Of a DNA stretch of 64,000 bases, positions 18,574 to 45,347 are shown in pieces (the first letter of the stretch is position 1; each line of letters begins with the position of its first letter). The DNA is from Pseudoalteromonas luteoviolacea (GTDB lineage: Bacteria; Pseudomonadota; Gammaproteobacteria; Enterobacterales; Alteromonadaceae), in contig NZ_JAGJEH010000002.1 in the NCBI RefSeq assembly GCF_018100925.1, forward strand, positions 372,001 through 436,000, given 5' to 3'. The translations under genes and the position numbers were made by a program. A model generated the notes under the pieces. It was given only the letters and a program-made list of their open reading frames with translations. It was not told the origin of the DNA and searched no databases.

Positions 18574-18849
18574 TTAAATTTTTTGACGACAAACCCCGTG
18601 TATTCTTCTATCCCAAAAACCGATCACAGGATAATAACCAGTTGCTCTAGCCCACCGAGCCGCGCTTGCTGTTATCAAACCATTTTGCTGCGCATAATTT
18701 ATTGCTAGCAAGTAGTTCGGATAGTCTACTACACAGCGCCCTGTCTCTGTATACGCACGATGTTGGTACTCGGCTAAGTCCATTACTGCCAGTGAGTTAA
18801 ATGACAATAAAGTGAGGCTGACTGCACATAGTACTTTTTTACTTATCAT
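18574..18849 (-). CDS. Array member 13: secreted GLIT/YYPVID-family protein
   Basis: Last gene of a 13-gene tandem array of one unrecognised family. The 91-residue product has a signal peptide (about residues 1-21, ending SLA), the N-terminal mature motif VMDLAEYQHRA, a first cysteine in TGRC, the core GLITASAARWARATGYYPVI and a second cysteine in HGVC. This is a divergent copy: the usual Asp after YYPVI is Gly. The mature protein of about 70 residues is probably held by one disulfide. Function unknown; export is inferred from the signal peptide. Confidence 0.8.
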   Translation of the reverse strand: MISKKVLCAVSLTLLSFNSLAVMDLAEYQHRAYTETGRCVVDYPNYLLAINYAQQNGLITASAARWARATGYYPVIGFWDRRIHGVCRQKI

Positions 18850-18889
18850 GATGGTGTCCTTATTCGTTTTGAGTTGTCAATTAGCTGGG

Positions 18890-19234
18890 TTAGGCCTTGC
18901 AAATACCCGAAATGATAAATACAAAGGCGTCAATCACAGGATAGTATCCGTTACTTGAGCCCCATTGCGCCGCGGCATCCGTGATGAGACCTCTGTCACG
19001 GGCAAAATTATTGCGGAATATGACCTCTGAAGGTCCAACAGGTGCGCCCGGTCTTCGCAGTTTACATTTTATAGCGTGAATTGAACTCGCATGCGCGATG
19101 TATTCATCCAATGTCATGGGAGTGGCAGAGGTAGCTGCTGGCATTGCGATGTATTCATCCAATGTCATGGGGGTGGTAGAAGCAGCCGCAGGCATCGCGA
19201 GTGATGCCACAAATAAAAGTGTTTTAAAGTACAT
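18890..19234 (-). CDS. Array member 12: secreted family protein with internal 17-residue duplication
   Basis: Member of the tandem family, 114 residues. Residues 14-30 and 31-47 are near-identical copies that contain the end of the signal peptide and the first mature segment (MTLDEYIA), so two possible signal-peptidase sites exist. The rest follows the family: cysteine at IKCKLRR, core GLITDAAAQWG then NGYYPVID, and last cysteine in SGICKA. AAGGAAATTCAA precedes the ATG, just past the stop of member 11. It is the longest intact copy. Confidence 0.78.
   Translation of the reverse strand: MYFKTLLFVASLAMPAAASTTPMTLDEYIAMPAATSATPMTLDEYIAHASSIHAIKCKLRRPGAPVGPSEVIFRNNFARDRGLITDAAAQWGSSNGYYPVIDAFVFIISGICKA
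19094..19195. repeat. 51-bp direct tandem duplication within array member 12
   Basis: Two copies of 51 bp (19094-19144 and 19145-19195) differ at a few positions and encode the duplicated 17 residues. The unit is a multiple of three, so the frame is kept. Confidence 0.9.
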
Positions 19235-19244
19235 TTGAATTTCC

Positions 19245-19559
19245 TTATTGAATTAACTTATTTTTTGAGAATGATTTGTATGTGCTAATTTTGTTTGTAT
19301 ACGAGTCAAGATTAATACTGAAAATGGCTGAAATTTGACCGGAAAAATAATCAATAACGGGGTAATAACCAAATGCTTTGCCCCAATATGATGCTCTTTC
19401 AGTGATCAAACCTTGCTGATATGCGTAATCGATATAAAACTTGACCCGCTCATGGCTTGGTGGTCTAGCGTAACAGCGAACCATACTATCTTGTTCGGCT
19501 CTTGCTCGATATTGTTCAAATGTCATTGCGGCAAGCACGCCACTTGATAACAAAGACAA
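19245..19559 (-). pseudogene. Array member 11: degenerate secreted family copy lacking ATG and last cysteine
   Basis: The core is intact (first cysteine in VRCYARPP, GLITERASYWGKAFGYYPVID), but both ends are damaged. Upstream, the signal-peptide coding (L-K-L-F-A-S-V-G-L-L-S-L-L-S) begins immediately after, and in frame with, the TAA of member 10, with no ATG and no ribosome site; only an internal TTG at 19559 could start it. At the 3' end the family's AIC is AIF (TGC to TTC) and the normal stop is lost, adding about 20 residues of tail. A deletion that removed the spacer and start codon best explains this. It might still be made by reinitiation from TTG. Confidence 0.65.
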
Positions 19560-19586
19560 TAACCCAACAGAGGCGAATAGTTTTAA

Positions 19587-19904
19587 TTAAATCGGTTTTG
19601 AGTGCGAGATATAACATATCAGGTGAATTCTATCTCGAGAGAAGAAATCGACTATTGGATAGAATCCATTTCTTATACCCCATTGAGAAGATTGCTCAGT
19701 GATTAGCCCTTGGTCACGAGCAAACTCATTACGCAATCTAATCTCTTCTATTTTTCGGGGTCTCATATAGCGAGCCTCCCAACATTGGTATCTTTCTTCA
19801 TATGAAGTTGCCCGCTCGATATATTCATCTAGCGACAATGCAGCAGCTGATTCAAATGTAAACAAAGAGAGTGCTCCTGCTAATGCGAGCGTCTTAAAAG
19901 TCAT
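19587..19904 (-). CDS. Array member 10: secreted family protein
   Basis: A 105-residue member. Signal peptide to about residue 22 (FESAAA), mature start LSLDEYIERA, first cysteine in YQCWEARY, core GLITEQSSQWG and NGFYPIVDFF, and last cysteine in HLICY. The C-terminus is extended (YISHSKPI) and ends exactly where member 11's coding begins, so its original end may have been lost in the same deletion. AAGGATTTATT precedes the ATG. Confidence 0.77.
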   Translation of the reverse strand: MTFKTLALAGALSLFTFESAAALSLDEYIERATSYEERYQCWEARYMRPRKIEEIRLRNEFARDQGLITEQSSQWGIRNGFYPIVDFFSRDRIHLICYISHSKPI

Positions 19905-20015
19905 AATAAATCCTTTATATTGTGTAGTGTATTTAACTTGTTATGGGATCCAAATTTAAATAGTAAGTGTTTAATTCCGCTTCAATTAGAATGCTATTGT
20001 CATGTAGCCTTGCTG

Positions 20016-20309
20016 CTAAGGTTTGCCAGCAGAGCAAACTGCGCGGACGTCTTGCCAAAACATATCGATGATAGGGTAAAAACCATTGGCCCTTCCCCAA
20101 TTGGCGGCACGTGTTGTAATAAGCCCTCGATACAGTGCTTCATCAATATATTGCTGCCAATTTGAGGGGGCTGGGAAGGTATTGCAGCGCGAGTGAGGCT
20201 GACTGCCTATAATGGCACGATACTGATATTCAGATATGTTCATTGATGCAAATGATTCAAATGAAAGTATAGAAAACACACTTGCAAAGGTGAGCTGTTT
20301 GATGTTCAT
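20016..20309 (-). CDS. Array member 9: secreted family protein
   Basis: The 97-residue product begins MNIKQLTFASVFSILSF; the ATG at 20309 with TAAGGAAATCACT before it is preferred over an upstream in-frame ATG inside the preceding spacer. Signal peptide to about residue 22, then MNISEYQYRA, first cysteine in SRCNTFPAP, core GLITTRAANWGRANGFYPIID and last cysteine in RAVCSAG. Among the members it has the longest loop before the first cysteine. Confidence 0.8.
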   Translation of the reverse strand: MNIKQLTFASVFSILSFESFASMNISEYQYRAIIGSQPHSRCNTFPAPSNWQQYIDEALYRGLITTRAANWGRANGFYPIIDMFWQDVRAVCSAGKP

Positions 20310-20368
20310 AGTGATTTCCTTATGTAGTTTAAGCGATCCAGAATAAATAAAAGCGCTGATATTTTTGA

Positions 20369-20659
20369 TTAGATGCCTCTGCAAATGGCGTTAATTCTGC
20401 CTGAGTTAGGGTCAATTAAAGGGTAGAAGCTGTAAGCCTTGCCCCAATAGGCTGCTCTTTCAGTAATTAAGCCCCTGTTATGTGCATCGTCAATTCGTCT
20501 CGCTAATTCTTGAAATGAAATAGGTCCTGCATAACACGTTCCTGGTGGACCGTTACCTTCAAGGGCAAAGGCGCGATATTGAGCTAACCCCATAGCAGCA
20601 GAAGCATCAAACGAAAGTAATGACAATAGCGCTGAGAAAGCGATAGTTCTATAAATCAA
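20369..20659 (-). CDS. Array member 8: secreted family protein
   Basis: The 96-residue member starts with TTG at 20659, preceded by AGAGGATAGAAA at suitable spacing; no ATG fits. Signal peptide ends near FDASA; mature start AMGLAQYRAFA; first cysteine in GTCYAGP, followed by the basic helix ARRIDDAHNRGLITERAA, then YWGKAYSFYPLID and last cysteine in AICRG. Confidence 0.78.
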   Translation of the reverse strand: MIYRTIAFSALLSLLSFDASAAMGLAQYRAFALEGNGPPGTCYAGPISFQELARRIDDAHNRGLITERAAYWGKAYSFYPLIDPNSGRINAICRGI

Positions 20660-20701
20660 ATTTCTATCCTCTTTTTAGCAATTTACGCTTGAGTCCTGAG
20701 C

Positions 20702-20989
20702 TTAACCACGGCATATTGCCAAAACTGACCGAGTATAAGTGTCCACAACAGGGTAGTAGCTATATGCTTTTGCCCAAAATGAAGCTCGTTGAGTAATAAG
20801 TCCCATCCCAAGTGCGAAATCTATTCGAGCTTTGACTTCAGTGTATGATGTAGGTTTTGAGGTACAGCGACCTGCAGCTTGTGCATCTCTTTGCGCCATA
20901 GCTTCATAGGCAGCCATGCTGATCGCCGCATTAGAGTCAAATGACAGTAAAGCGATAGCGCCTGCAAAGGTAAGTGATTTAAATGACAT
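20702..20989 (-). CDS. Array member 7: secreted family protein
   Basis: The 95-residue product starts at the ATG at 20989 (MSFKSLTFAGAIALLSF), six bases after GGGAG; a longer in-frame start at 21040 lies in the spacer. First cysteine in AAGRCTSKP, core GLITQRASFWAKAYSYYPVVD, last cysteine in AICRG. The Gly of the WGK motif is Ala here. Confidence 0.8.
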   Translation of the reverse strand: MSFKSLTFAGAIALLSFDSNAAISMAAYEAMAQRDAQAAGRCTSKPTSYTEVKARIDFALGMGLITQRASFWAKAYSYYPVVDTYTRSVLAICRG

Positions 20990-21076
20990 GGAACACTCCC
21001 ATTTAAGGTTTGATATTACCGCCTTAGTTTTATTTACCAAGGCGCATTCGATTAGAGGTAAAAATTGACTTCTGCC

Positions 21077-21376
21077 TTATCTACTGCCGCTTCCACTGCA
21101 AACTGCGCCTATAGTAAAGCTAAAAAAATCAATAACAGGGTAGTAGCTATAGGCCTTACCCCAATCCGCCGCTCTTCTGGTAATTAGCCCCCGATTAACT
21201 GCCCAATCAATGCGCCTTACCATTTCATGGTATGGGAGGGGGCTATATACACATCGCCCTGTTATTTCTGAGTCTATCTGAGCGCGACTCTGATAAGCTG
21301 CTAAGTCCATCATTGCGGCAGATTCGAATGACAGCAGGGACAATGCGCCTGCGAATGCAAGAGTTTTTATCATCAT
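21077..21376 (-). CDS. Array member 6: secreted family protein
   Basis: The 99-residue product starts at the first of two ATG codons after TAAGGAAGTTATC. Signal peptide KTLAFAGALSLLSFESAA, mature start MMDLAAYQSRAQID, cysteine in TGRCVYSP, core GLITRRAADWGKAYSYYPVID, last cysteine in GAVCSG. Very close to members 4 and 5, including homologous spacers, so these three arose by recent duplication. Confidence 0.82.
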   Translation of the reverse strand: MMIKTLAFAGALSLLSFESAAMMDLAAYQSRAQIDSEITGRCVYSPLPYHEMVRRIDWAVNRGLITRRAADWGKAYSYYPVIDFFSFTIGAVCSGSGSR

Positions 21377-21464
21377 GATAACTTCCTTATTTATTAACAT
21401 TTAGTAATTGGTGATTTTTTTAAATACTTATATAAGCACTTTTATAGGGCTATTAATTTAAGCC

Positions 21465-21755
21465 TTATCTTCCACTACAAATTGCGCCTATTTTAAAGTT
21501 AAAAATATCTATAACAGGATAATAGCCATACGCTTTGCCCCAATAAGCCGCTCTTTCGGTAATTAGTCCGCGGTTAAATGCCCAATCTATGCGCATTGCC
21601 AATTCTTGGAAAGGGATTGGCTTGTTGTTACATCGCCCTCCAATTCCTGAGTCAATTCGAGCGCGATGTTCATAAGCAGCCAAGTCCATGACTGCGACAG
21701 ATTCGAAGGACAGCAAGGATAATGCTCCTGCAAGTGCCAGTGTTTTTACCATCAT
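21465..21755 (-). CDS. Array member 5: secreted family protein
   Basis: A 96-residue product and one of the closest to the family consensus: signal peptide KTLALAGALSLLSFESVA, mature VMDLAAYEHRARIDSG, cysteine in GRCNNKP, then RIDWAFNRGLITERAA, YWGKAYGYYPVID and AICSGR. TAAGGAAATTATC precedes the double ATG. The last cysteine is three residues from the end. Confidence 0.84.
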   Translation of the reverse strand: MMVKTLALAGALSLLSFESVAVMDLAAYEHRARIDSGIGGRCNNKPIPFQELAMRIDWAFNRGLITERAAYWGKAYGYYPVIDIFNFKIGAICSGR

Positions 21756-21845
21756 GATAATTTCCTTATTTTTGGCTTTTAGTGCTGACCGATTAACTTT
21801 CAGGTACTTATGTGTGCACGTTTATAGGGGTCATTGATTTTGGCT

Positions 21846-22136
21846 TTATACACCTTTACAAATAGCCACTACAGTTCGGTCAAAAAAATCAACAACGGGA
21901 TAGTAGCCATAGGCCTTACCCCAATAAGCAGCTCTTTCGGTAATTAGCCCCTGATGAAATGCCCAATCAATGCGCATAATAAATTCTTGATAAGAGATAG
22001 GGCGAGTTGAACACCGACTAGCCAAATCAGAGTCAATACGGGCGCGATATTCGTAAGTTTCCAAGTCCATTGCTGCGAAAGATTCGAATGACAGCAGGGA
22101 TAATACTCCTGCTAATGCAAGTGTTTTTATCATCAT
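21846..22136 (-). CDS. Array member 4: secreted family protein
   Basis: A 96-residue near-consensus member: signal peptide KTLALAGVLSLLSFESFAA, mature MDLETYEYRARIDSD, first cysteine in ASRCSTRP, core GLITERAAYWGKAYGYYPVVD, last cysteine in AICKGV. The ribosome site is AAGGAATAATAATG. Unlike members 5 and 6, it is preceded by a 343-base spacer containing a long palindrome, so it may have its own promoter. Confidence 0.84.
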   Translation of the reverse strand: MMIKTLALAGVLSLLSFESFAAMDLETYEYRARIDSDLASRCSTRPISYQEFIMRIDWAFHQGLITERAAYWGKAYGYYPVVDFFDRTVVAICKGV

Positions 22137-22479
22137 TATTATTCCTTATCAGATTTAAACGCATTAAAAATACCGCTCTAACAGTGCGAAGGTTATGCAT
22201 TTGGTTATCAATATGTGTTCGAATACAAATTAACTCTATTCGGCATAGCGGCGGAATATCCCGATCAAAAGCAGCTCGATTTAGGTGCATCGACACACAT
22301 ATGGTGGCAGATTCAATTAAGCTAAATACGCAAGGAAAAAAGTGAAAACACCCACAAAATGGTTTTTTTCATTGTCTTTCCTATTTGACATTAGTTTATC
22401 GAGCATATGCAGCACGTCGCGACATGCTGCATAAATTCAGTTAAATACAGGATCGTTTTCTCAATATCATGTTGTTGAA
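22137..22479. other. Long spacer inside the array
   Basis: Spacers elsewhere in the array are 11-125 bases; this one is 343 bases. No decayed family copy could be read in either direction. It holds a 28-bp near-palindrome and is the best place for an internal promoter driving members 4 onward. Confidence 0.5.
22406..22433. promoter_or_regulatory. 28-bp near-perfect palindrome in the array spacer
   Basis: TATGCAGCA and TGCTGCATA arms flank GTCGCGAC, itself a palindrome; only one base pair (C opposite A) breaks the symmetry. There is no T-tract, so an operator or cruciform fits better than a terminator. It lies 46 bases past member 3 and 270 bases before member 4. Confidence 0.6.
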
Positions 22480-22773
22480 TTATGCGCCTCTACAAACAGC
22501 AACGACTCGGTCGGCAAAGAAGTCTACTACTGGATAGTAGCCATACGCTTTGCCCCAATAAGACGCTCTTTCTGTAATGAGCCCACGGCTGTAAGCCCAG
22601 TCAATGCGTTGTTTAAGCTCAGTATATGAGATAGGGTATCCTCGGGCACAACGTCCTGAGCTTCCATTGTCCTGATAGGCTCTCATTTCATATTCAGCAA
22701 TATCCATTGCGGCGAACGATTCAAATGAAAGTAGAGAAAGTACGCCAGCGAAAGCGAGGGTTTTAATGGCCAT
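22480..22773 (-). CDS. Array member 3: secreted family protein
   Basis: A 97-residue near-consensus member: signal peptide KTLAFAGVLSLLSFESFAA, mature MDIAEYEMRAYQDNGSSGRC with the first cysteine, then RIDWAYSRGLITERAS, YWGKAYGYYPVVD and last cysteine in AVCRGA. AAGGAAATCATT precedes the ATG. Confidence 0.84.
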   Translation of the reverse strand: MAIKTLAFAGVLSLLSFESFAAMDIAEYEMRAYQDNGSSGRCARGYPISYTELKQRIDWAYSRGLITERASYWGKAYGYYPVVDFFADRVVAVCRGA

Positions 22774-22896
22774 AATGATTTCCTTATATTTTGTAAAAGT
22801 AAATTAATCTTATTAATTGTGTTTATTCGGTATTTAACGCCTAGGCGACAAGTTTCGCCAACCTAAAATCCTGATTGAACAGTTGTCTCCCGACAT

Positions 22897-23199
22897 TTAA
22901 TCCAAAGAAGTAAAGGTCCTAAGATTGACTCGGCATACTCCCACAGCCTTGTATTCGTACATATCTATCACTGGGAAGTAGTAATTACTTTTGGCCTGTC
23001 GAGCGACATCGGGTGTAATAAGCCTGTCAGATACTGCCATTTGCAAATACTCTGAAAATGTCATCGGTACTCTATAGCTATAACAGGCATGGCTCCGTGC
23101 ATTAGGGTGTTGCGCACCTTCTATAAACTCAGGCAAGGTCATCATTGCGTGTGATTGGAAAGACAATATGCTTAAAATAGAGAGAGCTTTAAGATTCAT
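22897..23199 (-). CDS. Array member 2: most divergent secreted family protein
   Basis: A 100-residue product with a short signal peptide (to about residue 18, FQSHA) and mature start MMTLPEFIEGA. The core is changed to RLITPDVARQAKSNYYFPVID, with no WGK and no GLIT glycine, though LIT, PVID and both cysteines (SHACYS and GVCRV) are kept. The C-terminus has an extra RTFTSLD tail. It may be an older or functionally different copy. Confidence 0.76.
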   Translation of the reverse strand: MNLKALSILSILSFQSHAMMTLPEFIEGAQHPNARSHACYSYRVPMTFSEYLQMAVSDRLITPDVARQAKSNYYFPVIDMYEYKAVGVCRVNLRTFTSLD

Positions 23200-23250
23200 T
23201 TTATATCCTTATTAAATATTTCATAAATTCTAATAAAACTATTTATGTTT

Positions 23251-23562
23251 TTAGTATTGTTGTAGCTTTGGCCTAGCACCAAAGCTACACACTGCGACTA
23301 TCGTGTAATCAAATACATCAATGACTGGGTAGAAACCAGCTATACGGCCCCATGATGCAGCGCTAGAAGTAATAAGTCCGTGGCTCTGCGCGAAGTCTAT
23401 ACGGTGGTAATAATCGATAATATGAGGTGGGTTTACACAGCGTCCAGGAGTCTGCCGATCGATTAGAGCCTGTCTTTTGTAGCTTTGCAAGTCCATTGTT
23501 GCATATGAATCGAATGAAATAATACCAAGCAAGAATATGAAAAAAGAGGGCTTTATCATCAT
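23251..23562 (-). CDS. Array member 1: secreted family protein, first gene
   Basis: The 103-residue product of the first gene in transcription order. Signal peptide PSFFIFLLGIISFDSYA, mature TMDLQSYKRQALIDR, first cysteine in GRCVNPP, core GLITSSAASWGRIAGFYPVID, last cysteine in AVCSFG, plus a C-terminal tail ARPKLQQY. TAAGGAAATATATATG gives the ribosome site. Upstream is a long AT-rich region likely to hold the array promoter. Confidence 0.8.
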   Translation of the reverse strand: MMIKPSFFIFLLGIISFDSYATMDLQSYKRQALIDRQTPGRCVNPPHIIDYYHRIDFAQSHGLITSSAASWGRIAGFYPVIDVFDYTIVAVCSFGARPKLQQY

Positions 23563-42719: not shown

Positions 42720-45347
42720 TTACTTAATAAAGTAAAGTAGTTTGTCTTGCTCTGTATGCGCATAAATTGTGCTATACGGCCAGATAGAAAAAGGCCTTTC
42801 AGGATTACCGTTAAATATTGCTGCCCCTGCGATATGGTATTGGTAATACCCCGTGTTGTCGGCTAGTTGTGCCATTGTGAACGTGCCGCTATCAACATAG
42901 TTGCATGCCACGCCTGTAGGCTCGGAACGGAATATGTTTAAACCTTCCATATGAGGCGTGCCGTCAAATGTTGCAGTTAGGTCAGCGGCCGTGTCATCAA
43001 GCAAACTCTGGCATCCATTACCAGTTGGATTGGTGACATTATGTGCTGAAATCATCGACACTCGCTGATGTTCGTCAATAAACATAAGCCCTTCTGTCAT
43101 TGTGGCTCTCAGCGCTTGCCAGCGGGCCGATTCCAAAACACCATATTGGTCAATTTTTACTGGGTCGCGCATGAGTTTGCGTTCAATGCCATCTGCGTGA
43201 TTTGCAAAGAGTGTCCAACCACCGCCAAGGGTGTCCATATCGCAATATACAGCAAAGGGGGATACGCCTTGATCTCCATCCGGGTCTATTTGGTAGTAAC
43301 CTGAAGACGCTCCTGGATTATTAATTTGAATATCTTTACAGTTTATTCCTTGTGAGGCGCCTGGTTCTAGTCCAAACTCGTCTACAAAAAAGCCATAGTA
43401 TTCCATCTCATCTATTTGACTATGTTTAACAGAACCATGAGTCGTCAAAATAAGTAACCTAAAGTAGGTGCCACTCGCAGCACGGTTTAACGTAACGGAA
43501 GCATGTCCTTTTTCCATGGTGATCTGTTCATGATCTATAAAATTAACGCCATCATTTGAGACTTGCAAAATCGCTTCTTTAGGTGTTCTTGGCGCGAATT
43601 CAGCATGGTGATTTGAAACACGCGTACTGAAGCCCGTAATTACTGCTTTTTTGGCGAAGCCAACCTGTAACCATTCATTGGTGTTTGTAGGGCCCAACCA
43701 GATACCGTGGGAAATTAAGTTACCTGCATCGGCATTTATTTTGTTGTTTGGATCTGTGTAATATAGATGACCGTCAAATGCGCCCGCTGGCGTAAATTGA
43801 TTTACGGTGGCGCTGGCCGAGTAACTTGCAGGCTGCAATGAGTTGGTGTAAACCAATGCGATATTGTCATTGTCCCCGGTCATTTGACCAAAAATGGCTT
43901 TACTAGATGCACTTGGGTTCTCCATATCGCAATAGTAGTATTCGCCTTCTTTTCCACCTGGCCCATCACTATCTATCAAGTAAGCGCCACTTGGCGAGTG
44001 TGGTTTGGCCGCCAAAATACTTGCGCAGCTTGAACCATCGCTGGGAAACACCTCTTTATTCAGTGTTGAAATCATCGCAAAGAGTTCTTCGTATTTTGCC
44101 GCAAGCATACGATCAGCTGAATCAGTGTAACCTTTGGTAACTAGGTGGTTAGGCTGGATAGGTGTATTTGCAATGGCGTTACCTATTACTTCTAGGGCGG
44201 CAGAGGGAGAAACGGTCCCGACACCGACTCTAACTGAAGTGGTAACTTGATTTGCACCATCAGTCCAGTGAGTGGTGCCCGGTACTCCTTGGATCCCTTG
44301 CGGACCTTGTGGACCAATCAAGCCCCTTTCCCCTTGAGGGCCGATCAGGCCTCTTTCGCCAGCAGGGCCTGTTTCTCCAACCAAGCCCTGCAATCCTTGA
44401 ATACCTTGAGGGCCTTGTGCGCCGGGCTCACCTTGTAGCCCCTTAAACTCGCTCCAAATAGCACCATCGCAAATAAATATTTGTTTATCAATACTGTTGT
44501 AGTACATCGAACCTTCGTGAGCCGCATCACACGATATTGGGCTGTTTGTTTGTGGCACAAGTCGTAACGCACCTGCGACTTCTGTATTACCCGCTAATTG
44601 TTGGGAAAATGTCGGGGGAGTGCTAGTTGGATCGCTGGGATCTGTGCCATTGCGAAACTCCAAGATATTGGTGGCGTTATCCAGATCGAGATCCGTACTT
44701 GCATCGCTTGGATCATTTGGATTTAATCCATATTGGATTTCCCAGTTGTCGTTCATACCATCTTGATCACTATCAACTAACGTTGGTGACACTGTTACTG
44801 AGACATCATCAAAATCGATAACGCTTTGTTGGGAGTCTGAGTTAATGAGCTCCAATATTAGAAAATCTGTGGATTCAACTAAAGAGCTATGGGTCTGAGT
44901 TGGTGTAAAGCTGATTTCAACCGGAGTAAACTGCCCTTTGGATAAAGATACTGAGGGTGTTAAATCTATAAATTGGCCATTGACTCTAAAACCAATTCTA
45001 AAATTGTATGCATCACTGTCATTTCTCCATCCGACTTTAGCTTTGACAACGTAGGTACTGTGCATATCTAACGGGACTTGTAAGTTTTGGCTCAACTTAC
45101 TGCCGGATTTTACAAAACCGATATTGTCGATTACATCATGATTTCCGTATTGTGCTAGGGTTGGGTTGAATATGCCGGCTTCGGTGGAGGGTGATGAGAG
45201 CCAGTACAGAGATTCTGAACTTTGCTGTGCTTCTTGCACGGTAAGAGCGTTAAAGTGGCCATCTTGAACAAGCTCTTGGCCAAGGGTAGGTAAACTGGCT
45301 ACACAAAGAGCAGCAGAGATGTAATGAGACAATTTAGTGTGTTTCAT
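42720..45347 (-). CDS. Mosaic secreted protein with TSP3, collagen-like, discoidin and fibrinogen-like modules
   Basis: An 875-residue exported protein (signal peptide about residues 1-23). In order: a beta-sandwich, carbohydrate-binding-like region (about 25-190); two thrombospondin type 3-like calcium repeats (about 191-240, [19 protein letters not shown]); a cysteine-bounded loop (about 273-300); 18 Gly-X-Y triplets (303-357); a tail-fibre-like segment (about 370-430, [18 protein letters not shown]); a short fibrinogen-like module (440-490); a discoidin (F5/8C) domain (about 495-655); and a second fibrinogen-like domain (about 668 to the end, [17 protein letters not shown]). Such modules bind carbohydrate or surfaces, suggesting an adhesin or matrix protein. 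TTAAGGAAATAA precedes the ATG. Confidence 0.88.
44277..44441. repeat. Collagen-like Gly-X-Y repeat coding region
   Basis: 165 bases on the minus strand encode about 18 Gly-X-Y triplets plus a final Gly, rich in G-P-Q and G-E-R triplets. Repeat units such as GERGLIGPQ occur twice in tandem, so the block probably grew by duplication. Confidence 0.85.

Follow-up and report, generated by a model that had tools for sequence, protein, structure and literature searches.

Among described gene families, the Hedgehog-related genes of nematodes are, by analogy, the closest parallel to the genes discussed here. In the warthog, groundhog, ground-like and quahog families, secreted N-terminal domains come in two forms, fused to a Hint (Hedgehog/intein) or Hog domain or, in a much larger number of genes, on their own; in C. 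elegans, according to the pertinent passages of PMC1636047, ten genes encode Hog and dozens encode the N-terminal domains alone, in local clusters with pseudogenes, and the loss of Hog is considered to be secondary. Here we analyze a stretch of 64,000 nucleotides (hereinafter the window) from the 6.5-Mb genome of Pseudoalteromonas luteoviolacea (contig NZ_JAGJEH010000002.1, positions 372,001 to 436,000; G000:C12:372001-436000 in our numbering), in which positions 18574-23562 hold 13 consecutive open reading frames (ORFs), all on the minus strand and all of a single family, as judged from the ORF list, an alignment and a sequence search. The explanation that we favor, and consider probable, is that this array, one member of which has decayed, encodes Hint-free relatives of the domain found at the N-terminus of a Hint-fused protein, and likely supplies that domain ready-cut outside the cell.

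In bacteria, the fused form probably belongs to a known kind. A bacterial Hint subgroup with members from Stigmatella aurantiaca, Myxococcus xanthus and others was described by Buerglin 2008, where, in the passages that concern this subgroup, some members are said to have signal peptides and two upstream cysteines to be conserved in all (PMC2362128). The proteins studied here share with that subgroup the C-terminal Hint-like domain, and one of them, P0045, also comes from Stigmatella aurantiaca, without being shown to be the same protein; these passages make no mention of Hint-free copies, arrays, a second cysteine pair or an operon. Similarly, C-type BIL domains occur together with PPS-1, the 'putative predator-specific domain 1' (Dori-Bachash 2009, as cited in PMC9185962); as far as the description goes, these too are Hint-type proteins from predatory bacteria that carry an additional conserved domain. 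The sentence of PMC9185962 in question is silent on Hint-free arrays.

The first-pass annotation of this stretch proposed an array of thirteen genes for likely exported proteins with a GLIT...YYPVID core and two cysteines, generated by local duplication and possibly diversifying, from a family that it could not recognize. A single-sequence search from one array member matched all 13 with E-values from 3.8e-62 (itself) to 4.8e-6, so the family likeness is not due to chance, and the row comprises 12 intact genes and one decayed gene (19245-19586). The core is visible in the alignment but varies in places, as in the RLIT...YYFPVID of 22897-23199; the first cysteine is present in 13/13 members and the second in 12/13, the decayed one lacking it. 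A start codon (11 ATG and one TTG) preceded by a purine-rich site (AAGGA in ten, AGAGGA or GGGAG in two) is present in 12 of the 13, and 12 have a hydrophobic N-terminal stretch, with signal peptides called from the sequence. Likely export of the array proteins and the pairing of their cysteines, both suggested originally, are supported. The family itself can now be placed: its sequence corresponds to the N-terminal domain of proteins labelled 'Hint domain-containing protein' in the sources, one of which is encoded elsewhere in the same genome. The same domain of about 75 residues, which we refer to as the payload, thus exists both fused to a predicted Hint domain and alone. None of the 12 intact array proteins (91-114 residues) contains a Hint domain, and they terminate 2-11 residues past the second cysteine; in the fused protein, the predicted cut, VCKCG|C between G96 and C97, lies three residues past that cysteine. 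The intact lone copies therefore end near the predicted cut site and resemble a pre-cut payload.

The C-terminal half of the fused protein is a predicted Hint domain, and its modeled fold is like that of the Hedgehog Hog domain (PDB 1at0), with which it shares the starting cysteine, the TxxH motif and the lack of a terminal Asn. In an alignment of 29 such proteins (A4), the C+1 cysteine and the Thr and His of block B (TxxH) are each present in 29/29, and the domain ends with Gly (28) or Ala (1), followed by Asp (29/29) and then by Leu, Ile, Val or Met. The signature of splicing inteins and A-type BIL domains (a terminal His-Asn and, for inteins, Cys, Ser or Thr at +1) was found in none of the 29. 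Splicing by this Hint domain was accordingly rejected, as it lacks both the terminal Asn and a nucleophile at +1. Unlike in Hedgehog, there is no evidence of sterol binding, and the Hint domain is followed, in 23 proteins, by a short tail of about 18 residues with an invariant WQN, in which no toxin domain is present.

Fused and lone payloads differ in their cysteines. This comparison covers 95 payload domains (88 of them different) from the loci collected ahead of those of Bdellovibrionota, with the fused protein P0036 set apart; the Bdellovibrionota loci enter neither these counts nor the tree. All four cysteines are present in 28/28 Hint-fused payloads, whereas among the 67 Hint-free ones 66 have the first pair only, the decayed array member has a single cysteine and none (0/67) has the second pair, whose sites are the start of helix 2 and the position two residues before the cut site. 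In a payload tree built without the second-pair columns, the Hint state changes seven times, and well-supported branches require at least five of these changes; in 5/5 independent pairs, the cysteine pair tracks the Hint state. The five Bdellovibrionota payloads (L113-L116 and L120) retain both pairs and have a third one at the GLIT and YPVID positions (GCIT, GCIN or KCVT, and YPxCD), which is possibly a further disulfide.

A mechanism that would accommodate these findings can be outlined. The first cysteine of Hint would attack the Gly in front of it to form a thioester, from which the payload of the fused protein would be transferred, Hedgehog-like, either to water or to some other acceptor. 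The second cysteine pair, which accompanies Hint, might form a disulfide holding or gating the site of the cut. There is precedent for such control in that, as reported in the relevant part of PMC7765530, an engineered disulfide that includes the first cysteine keeps an intein inactive until reduced. Lone copies would no longer need the cut-site disulfide, and repeated loss of Hint could have given rise to the lone form. The array proteins may be exported as soluble extracellular binding proteins with a one-disulfide fold, and would probably partner or compete with the processed founder.

Several observations weigh against this interpretation. Self-cutting of the fused protein is predicted from motifs and a modeled fold; the matches to the Pfam and NCBIfam Hint/intein models fall under the cut-offs, and in the model of the fused protein the payload and the junction are less sure, with blocks of predicted local distance difference test (pLDDT) scores from 47 to 86 and residues 83-91 under 50. 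In P0036, Glu replaces C95, one of the cysteines of the second pair. A sign test on the five independent pairs gives p 0.0625 and, with this number of pairs, cannot reach 0.05, and the tree, built on 72 columns, has 19 open forks and long branches and is unrooted, so that it gives no direction, and loss of Hint rather than gain is inferred. The signal peptides of the array proteins were called by eye and from hydrophobicity, without a predictor. Fold prediction, as proposed in the first-pass annotation, was carried out for the lone domain: downstream of the signal region, the AlphaFold2 model of member 4 (mean pLDDT 85) shows three helices and a beta hairpin. This fold has no convincing resemblance in the PDB or in a viral model library, so the structure gives no indication of function. 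Finally, nothing in the window matches the profiles of the proteins encoded next to the fused gene (B, C and subtilase, see below), and the array lies away from the payload-Hint operon.

This operon was delineated at 32 profile-checked loci, 21 of which contain the fused gene. On the same strand after the fused gene, protein C is encoded in 21/21 and protein B in 20/21; upstream, 14/21 loci encode an S8 subtilase on that strand, 13 of them directly before the fused gene. Both subtilases that were scanned have an I9 prodomain and a PPC domain. Protein C ranges over Gammaproteobacteria, Myxococcota and an Oligoflexales metagenome-assembled genome (MAG; phylum Bdellovibrionota), protein B over Gammaproteobacteria and Myxococcota, and the subtilase over Gammaproteobacteria and Hyalangium. 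Several of the bacteria that share this neighborhood are predators. In the genome studied here, the operon is located outside the window (L036 7409-14576, G000:C1) and encodes an S8 subtilase with I9 and PPC, the payload-Hint protein at L036 8957-9736, a double payload, B with a hydrophobic N-terminus, C, and D with a lipobox-like LITGC. The scanned B and C proteins have no convincing Pfam family. Motifs in the subtilase order D-H-S are seen in C and D (His and Ser in 14/14 rows, Asp in 13/14); comparison of C and D with subtilases gave no Pfam S8 match, no PDB match and an hhalign probability of 0.5%, and their status as proven subtilases was rejected for want of such confirmation.

The profile search of related genomes recommended by the first-pass annotation matched the array family in 12 of 108 genomes of the genus, its own included. 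Lone payload copies are also found in P. denitrificans, in the Oligoflexales MAG and in one genome (G903) from a search of the Corallococcus family, and all ten genomes with lone copies also carry the fused gene, which in one of them (G050) is a profile match over positions 30-255 only. Lone payload genes adjoin C genes in L042 and L050; at the remaining lone-copy loci, arrays included, the profile check detected neither B nor C. In P. denitrificans, two payload proteins (L041 8576-10128), encoded between the subtilase and the fused gene, are fused to a PPC domain resembling that of the neighboring subtilase, which suggests shared secretion; these two proteins match the S8 profile through PPC and are excluded from the subtilase counts. 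A distant single copy of the family was also noticed away from the array in the genome under study (L051 7269-7637, G000:C34; a 123-codon frame with E-values of 4e-5 and 0.002), along with a similar match in G030:C39. Payload-Hint fusions occur in myxobacteria and in Bdellovibrionota, where the fused profile matched in 31/58 genomes: the payload is detected in L113-L116 (E 9.7e-7 to 1.4e-9, with a WCSCGCFE junction) and in L120 (E 1.8e-6), and other loci have different N-terminal regions ahead of Hint. Among the Hint proteins of L117-L131, where such other N-terminal regions are seen, a CxCGCF or CxCSCF junction is present in L117-L120 and L124-L129; there are up to 8 matches per genome in this phylum.

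As for the evolution of the array, the same flanking genes enclose 13 copies in the window, 14 in strain NCIMB 1944 and 7 in each of MMG020, H33-S and B95. These differences in copy number, together with two homologous spacers (21756-21845 against 21377-21464, 47/73 columns, z 8.0), the only clear case among the spacers compared, uphold the proposed local tandem duplication. The suggestion of an actively diversifying set is not supported. The arrays of the window and NCIMB 1944 are collinear, with 13/13 reciprocal best orthologs, and the ratio of nonsynonymous to synonymous substitutions (dN/dS; Nei-Gojobori method, on the domain part), a comparison also called for at the outset, lies between 0 and 0.31 in the 12 intact members and reaches 0.38 in the decayed one; paralogs within the array are 41% identical at the median. 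A recent, diversifying array was rejected on these grounds, and the sequences indicate that the array is an old set that is kept up between close strains. With MMG020, reciprocal best matches exist for only 5/13 members (38 to 62% identity), so the content of the array largely differs between the two subclades.

Could the array be explained in other ways? The payload could be a partner of the subtilase, as inhibitor, folding helper or substrate, with the array providing additional inhibitors of that or other proteases. Such a role, which we consider unlikely, would fit the subtilase upstream of the fused gene at two thirds of the loci (14/21) and the PPC domain that the two P. denitrificans payload proteins share with subtilases; however, 7/21 fused loci have no subtilase (at L064, one of these, just 1.3 kb upstream is available), against the near-constant C and B, there is none near the array, and the array matched no known inhibitor family. 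It seems similarly improbable that the array proteins are structural components of the biofilm matrix or cell surface whose number grew for the sake of dosage: they are small, disulfide-bearing, likely exported and numerous, and nematode Hedgehog-related proteins have, in part of PMC1636047, been proposed to be components of the extracellular matrix, but no anchoring feature was seen in the array proteins, and the divergence between copies argues against mere dosage.

It is rather improbable that the Hint-fused protein acts as an antagonistic effector, with the lone copies serving for protection as decoys or immunity-like proteins, kept in numerous versions to counter its numerous variants. 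The confinement of lone copies to genomes with the fused gene is what such an arrangement would predict, and strings of immunity paralogs are described for other bacterial toxins in the passages of PMC9484751 that deal with them. Yet the short tail after Hint leaves no toxin domain to release, orthologous copies are conserved across close strains, and the lone copies share homology with the fused protein's own N-terminal domain; to our knowledge, such homology is atypical of toxin/immunity pairs. That the array is made of relics, mostly unexpressed, is very improbable. One member of 13 has indeed decayed, and promoter-like sites (8, compared with a mean of 18.1 in shuffled sequence) and terminator-like sites (1, compared with 4.7) are fewer than expected, but 12/13 members have kept a start and a ribosome-binding site and the intact ones show the low dN/dS reported above. 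The ready-cut payload thus remains the explanation that we prefer. An extension of it, which we find possible but doubtful, posits a Hedgehog-type bacterial secretion system in which, from a conserved operon of payload-Hint, B and C, often with the subtilase, Hint would release or covalently attach a small extracellular ligand at a redox-gated cut site marked by the second cysteine pair, whose gain and loss follow those of Hint, and dispersed Hint-free paralogs of the ligand, up to 14 per array, would signal, compete or bind in trans.

In transcription order, the array on the minus strand starts with member 1 (23251-23562, 103 residues, a payload domain), the divergent member 2 (22897-23199, 100 residues) and member 3 (22480-22773, 97 residues), after which comes a 343-base spacer (22137-22479) whose counterpart in NCIMB 1944 holds the additional copy (L048 10926-11222). 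Member 4 (21846-22136, 96 residues; model me7bffd6c287a) is followed by the first of the two homologous spacers, member 5 (21465-21755, 96 residues), the second spacer and member 6 (21077-21376; 99 residues from the ATG after an AAGGA site, the listed ORF starting at 21400). The next are member 7 (20702-20989; 95 residues from the ATG, listed start 21040), member 8 (20369-20659, 96 residues, with the TTG start), member 9 (20016-20309; 97 residues from the ATG, listed start 20384) and member 10 (19587-19904, 105 residues). Members 1-3 and 5-10, as well as the last, were assigned from the ORF, the family match, and the start and ribosome-binding site; member 4 from the ORF, match and model. The decayed member 11 (19245-19586) abuts with its 5' end the stop of the preceding gene and lacks a start codon and ribosome-binding site there; its C-terminus is altered, and Phe occupies the site of the second cysteine, both cysteines being present in the NCIMB 1944 ortholog (L048 7785-8135). 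Member 12 (18890-19234, 114 residues) contains an internal direct repeat at 19095-19195, two copies of CCCATGACATTGGATGAATACATCGC, which adds an extra TPMTLDEYIA segment, and member 13 (18574-18849, 91 residues) closes the row. Elsewhere in the window, positions 42720-45347 encode an 875-residue protein with matches to collagen repeats, the fibrinogen C-terminal domain and F5/8 type C, an unusual combination for a bacterium.

How far does the nematode comparison extend? None of the 13 array members matches the Ground or Ground-like Pfam domain at E <= 1, so kinship is not shown and the likeness is one of analogy; furthermore, unlike in the nematode families, the host here is a bacterium, there is an extra cysteine pair tied to Hint, and the fused gene shares its operon with B, C and, at many loci, a subtilase. 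Among the titles listed by the literature searches, none was on Hint-free paralog arrays in bacteria, which does not prove their absence; within the reach of those searches, three features are new, namely the Hint-free array, the cysteine switch and the neighborhood that the loci share. A row of small and likely exported orphan proteins is now tied to predicted self-cutting Hint precursors, within a neighborhood common to Gammaproteobacteria and myxobacteria, and in part to an Oligoflexales MAG, that points to an uncharacterized, probably extracellular system. The tight link between the second cysteine pair and Hint offers a direct test of disulfide gating of Hint cutting outside the cell. If the ready-cut reading is true, the array and its fused founder would be the bacterial counterpart of the Hedgehog-related genes of roundworms and point to an evolutionary route, described so far for nematodes, from a Hint-bearing founder likely to many Hint-free relatives.

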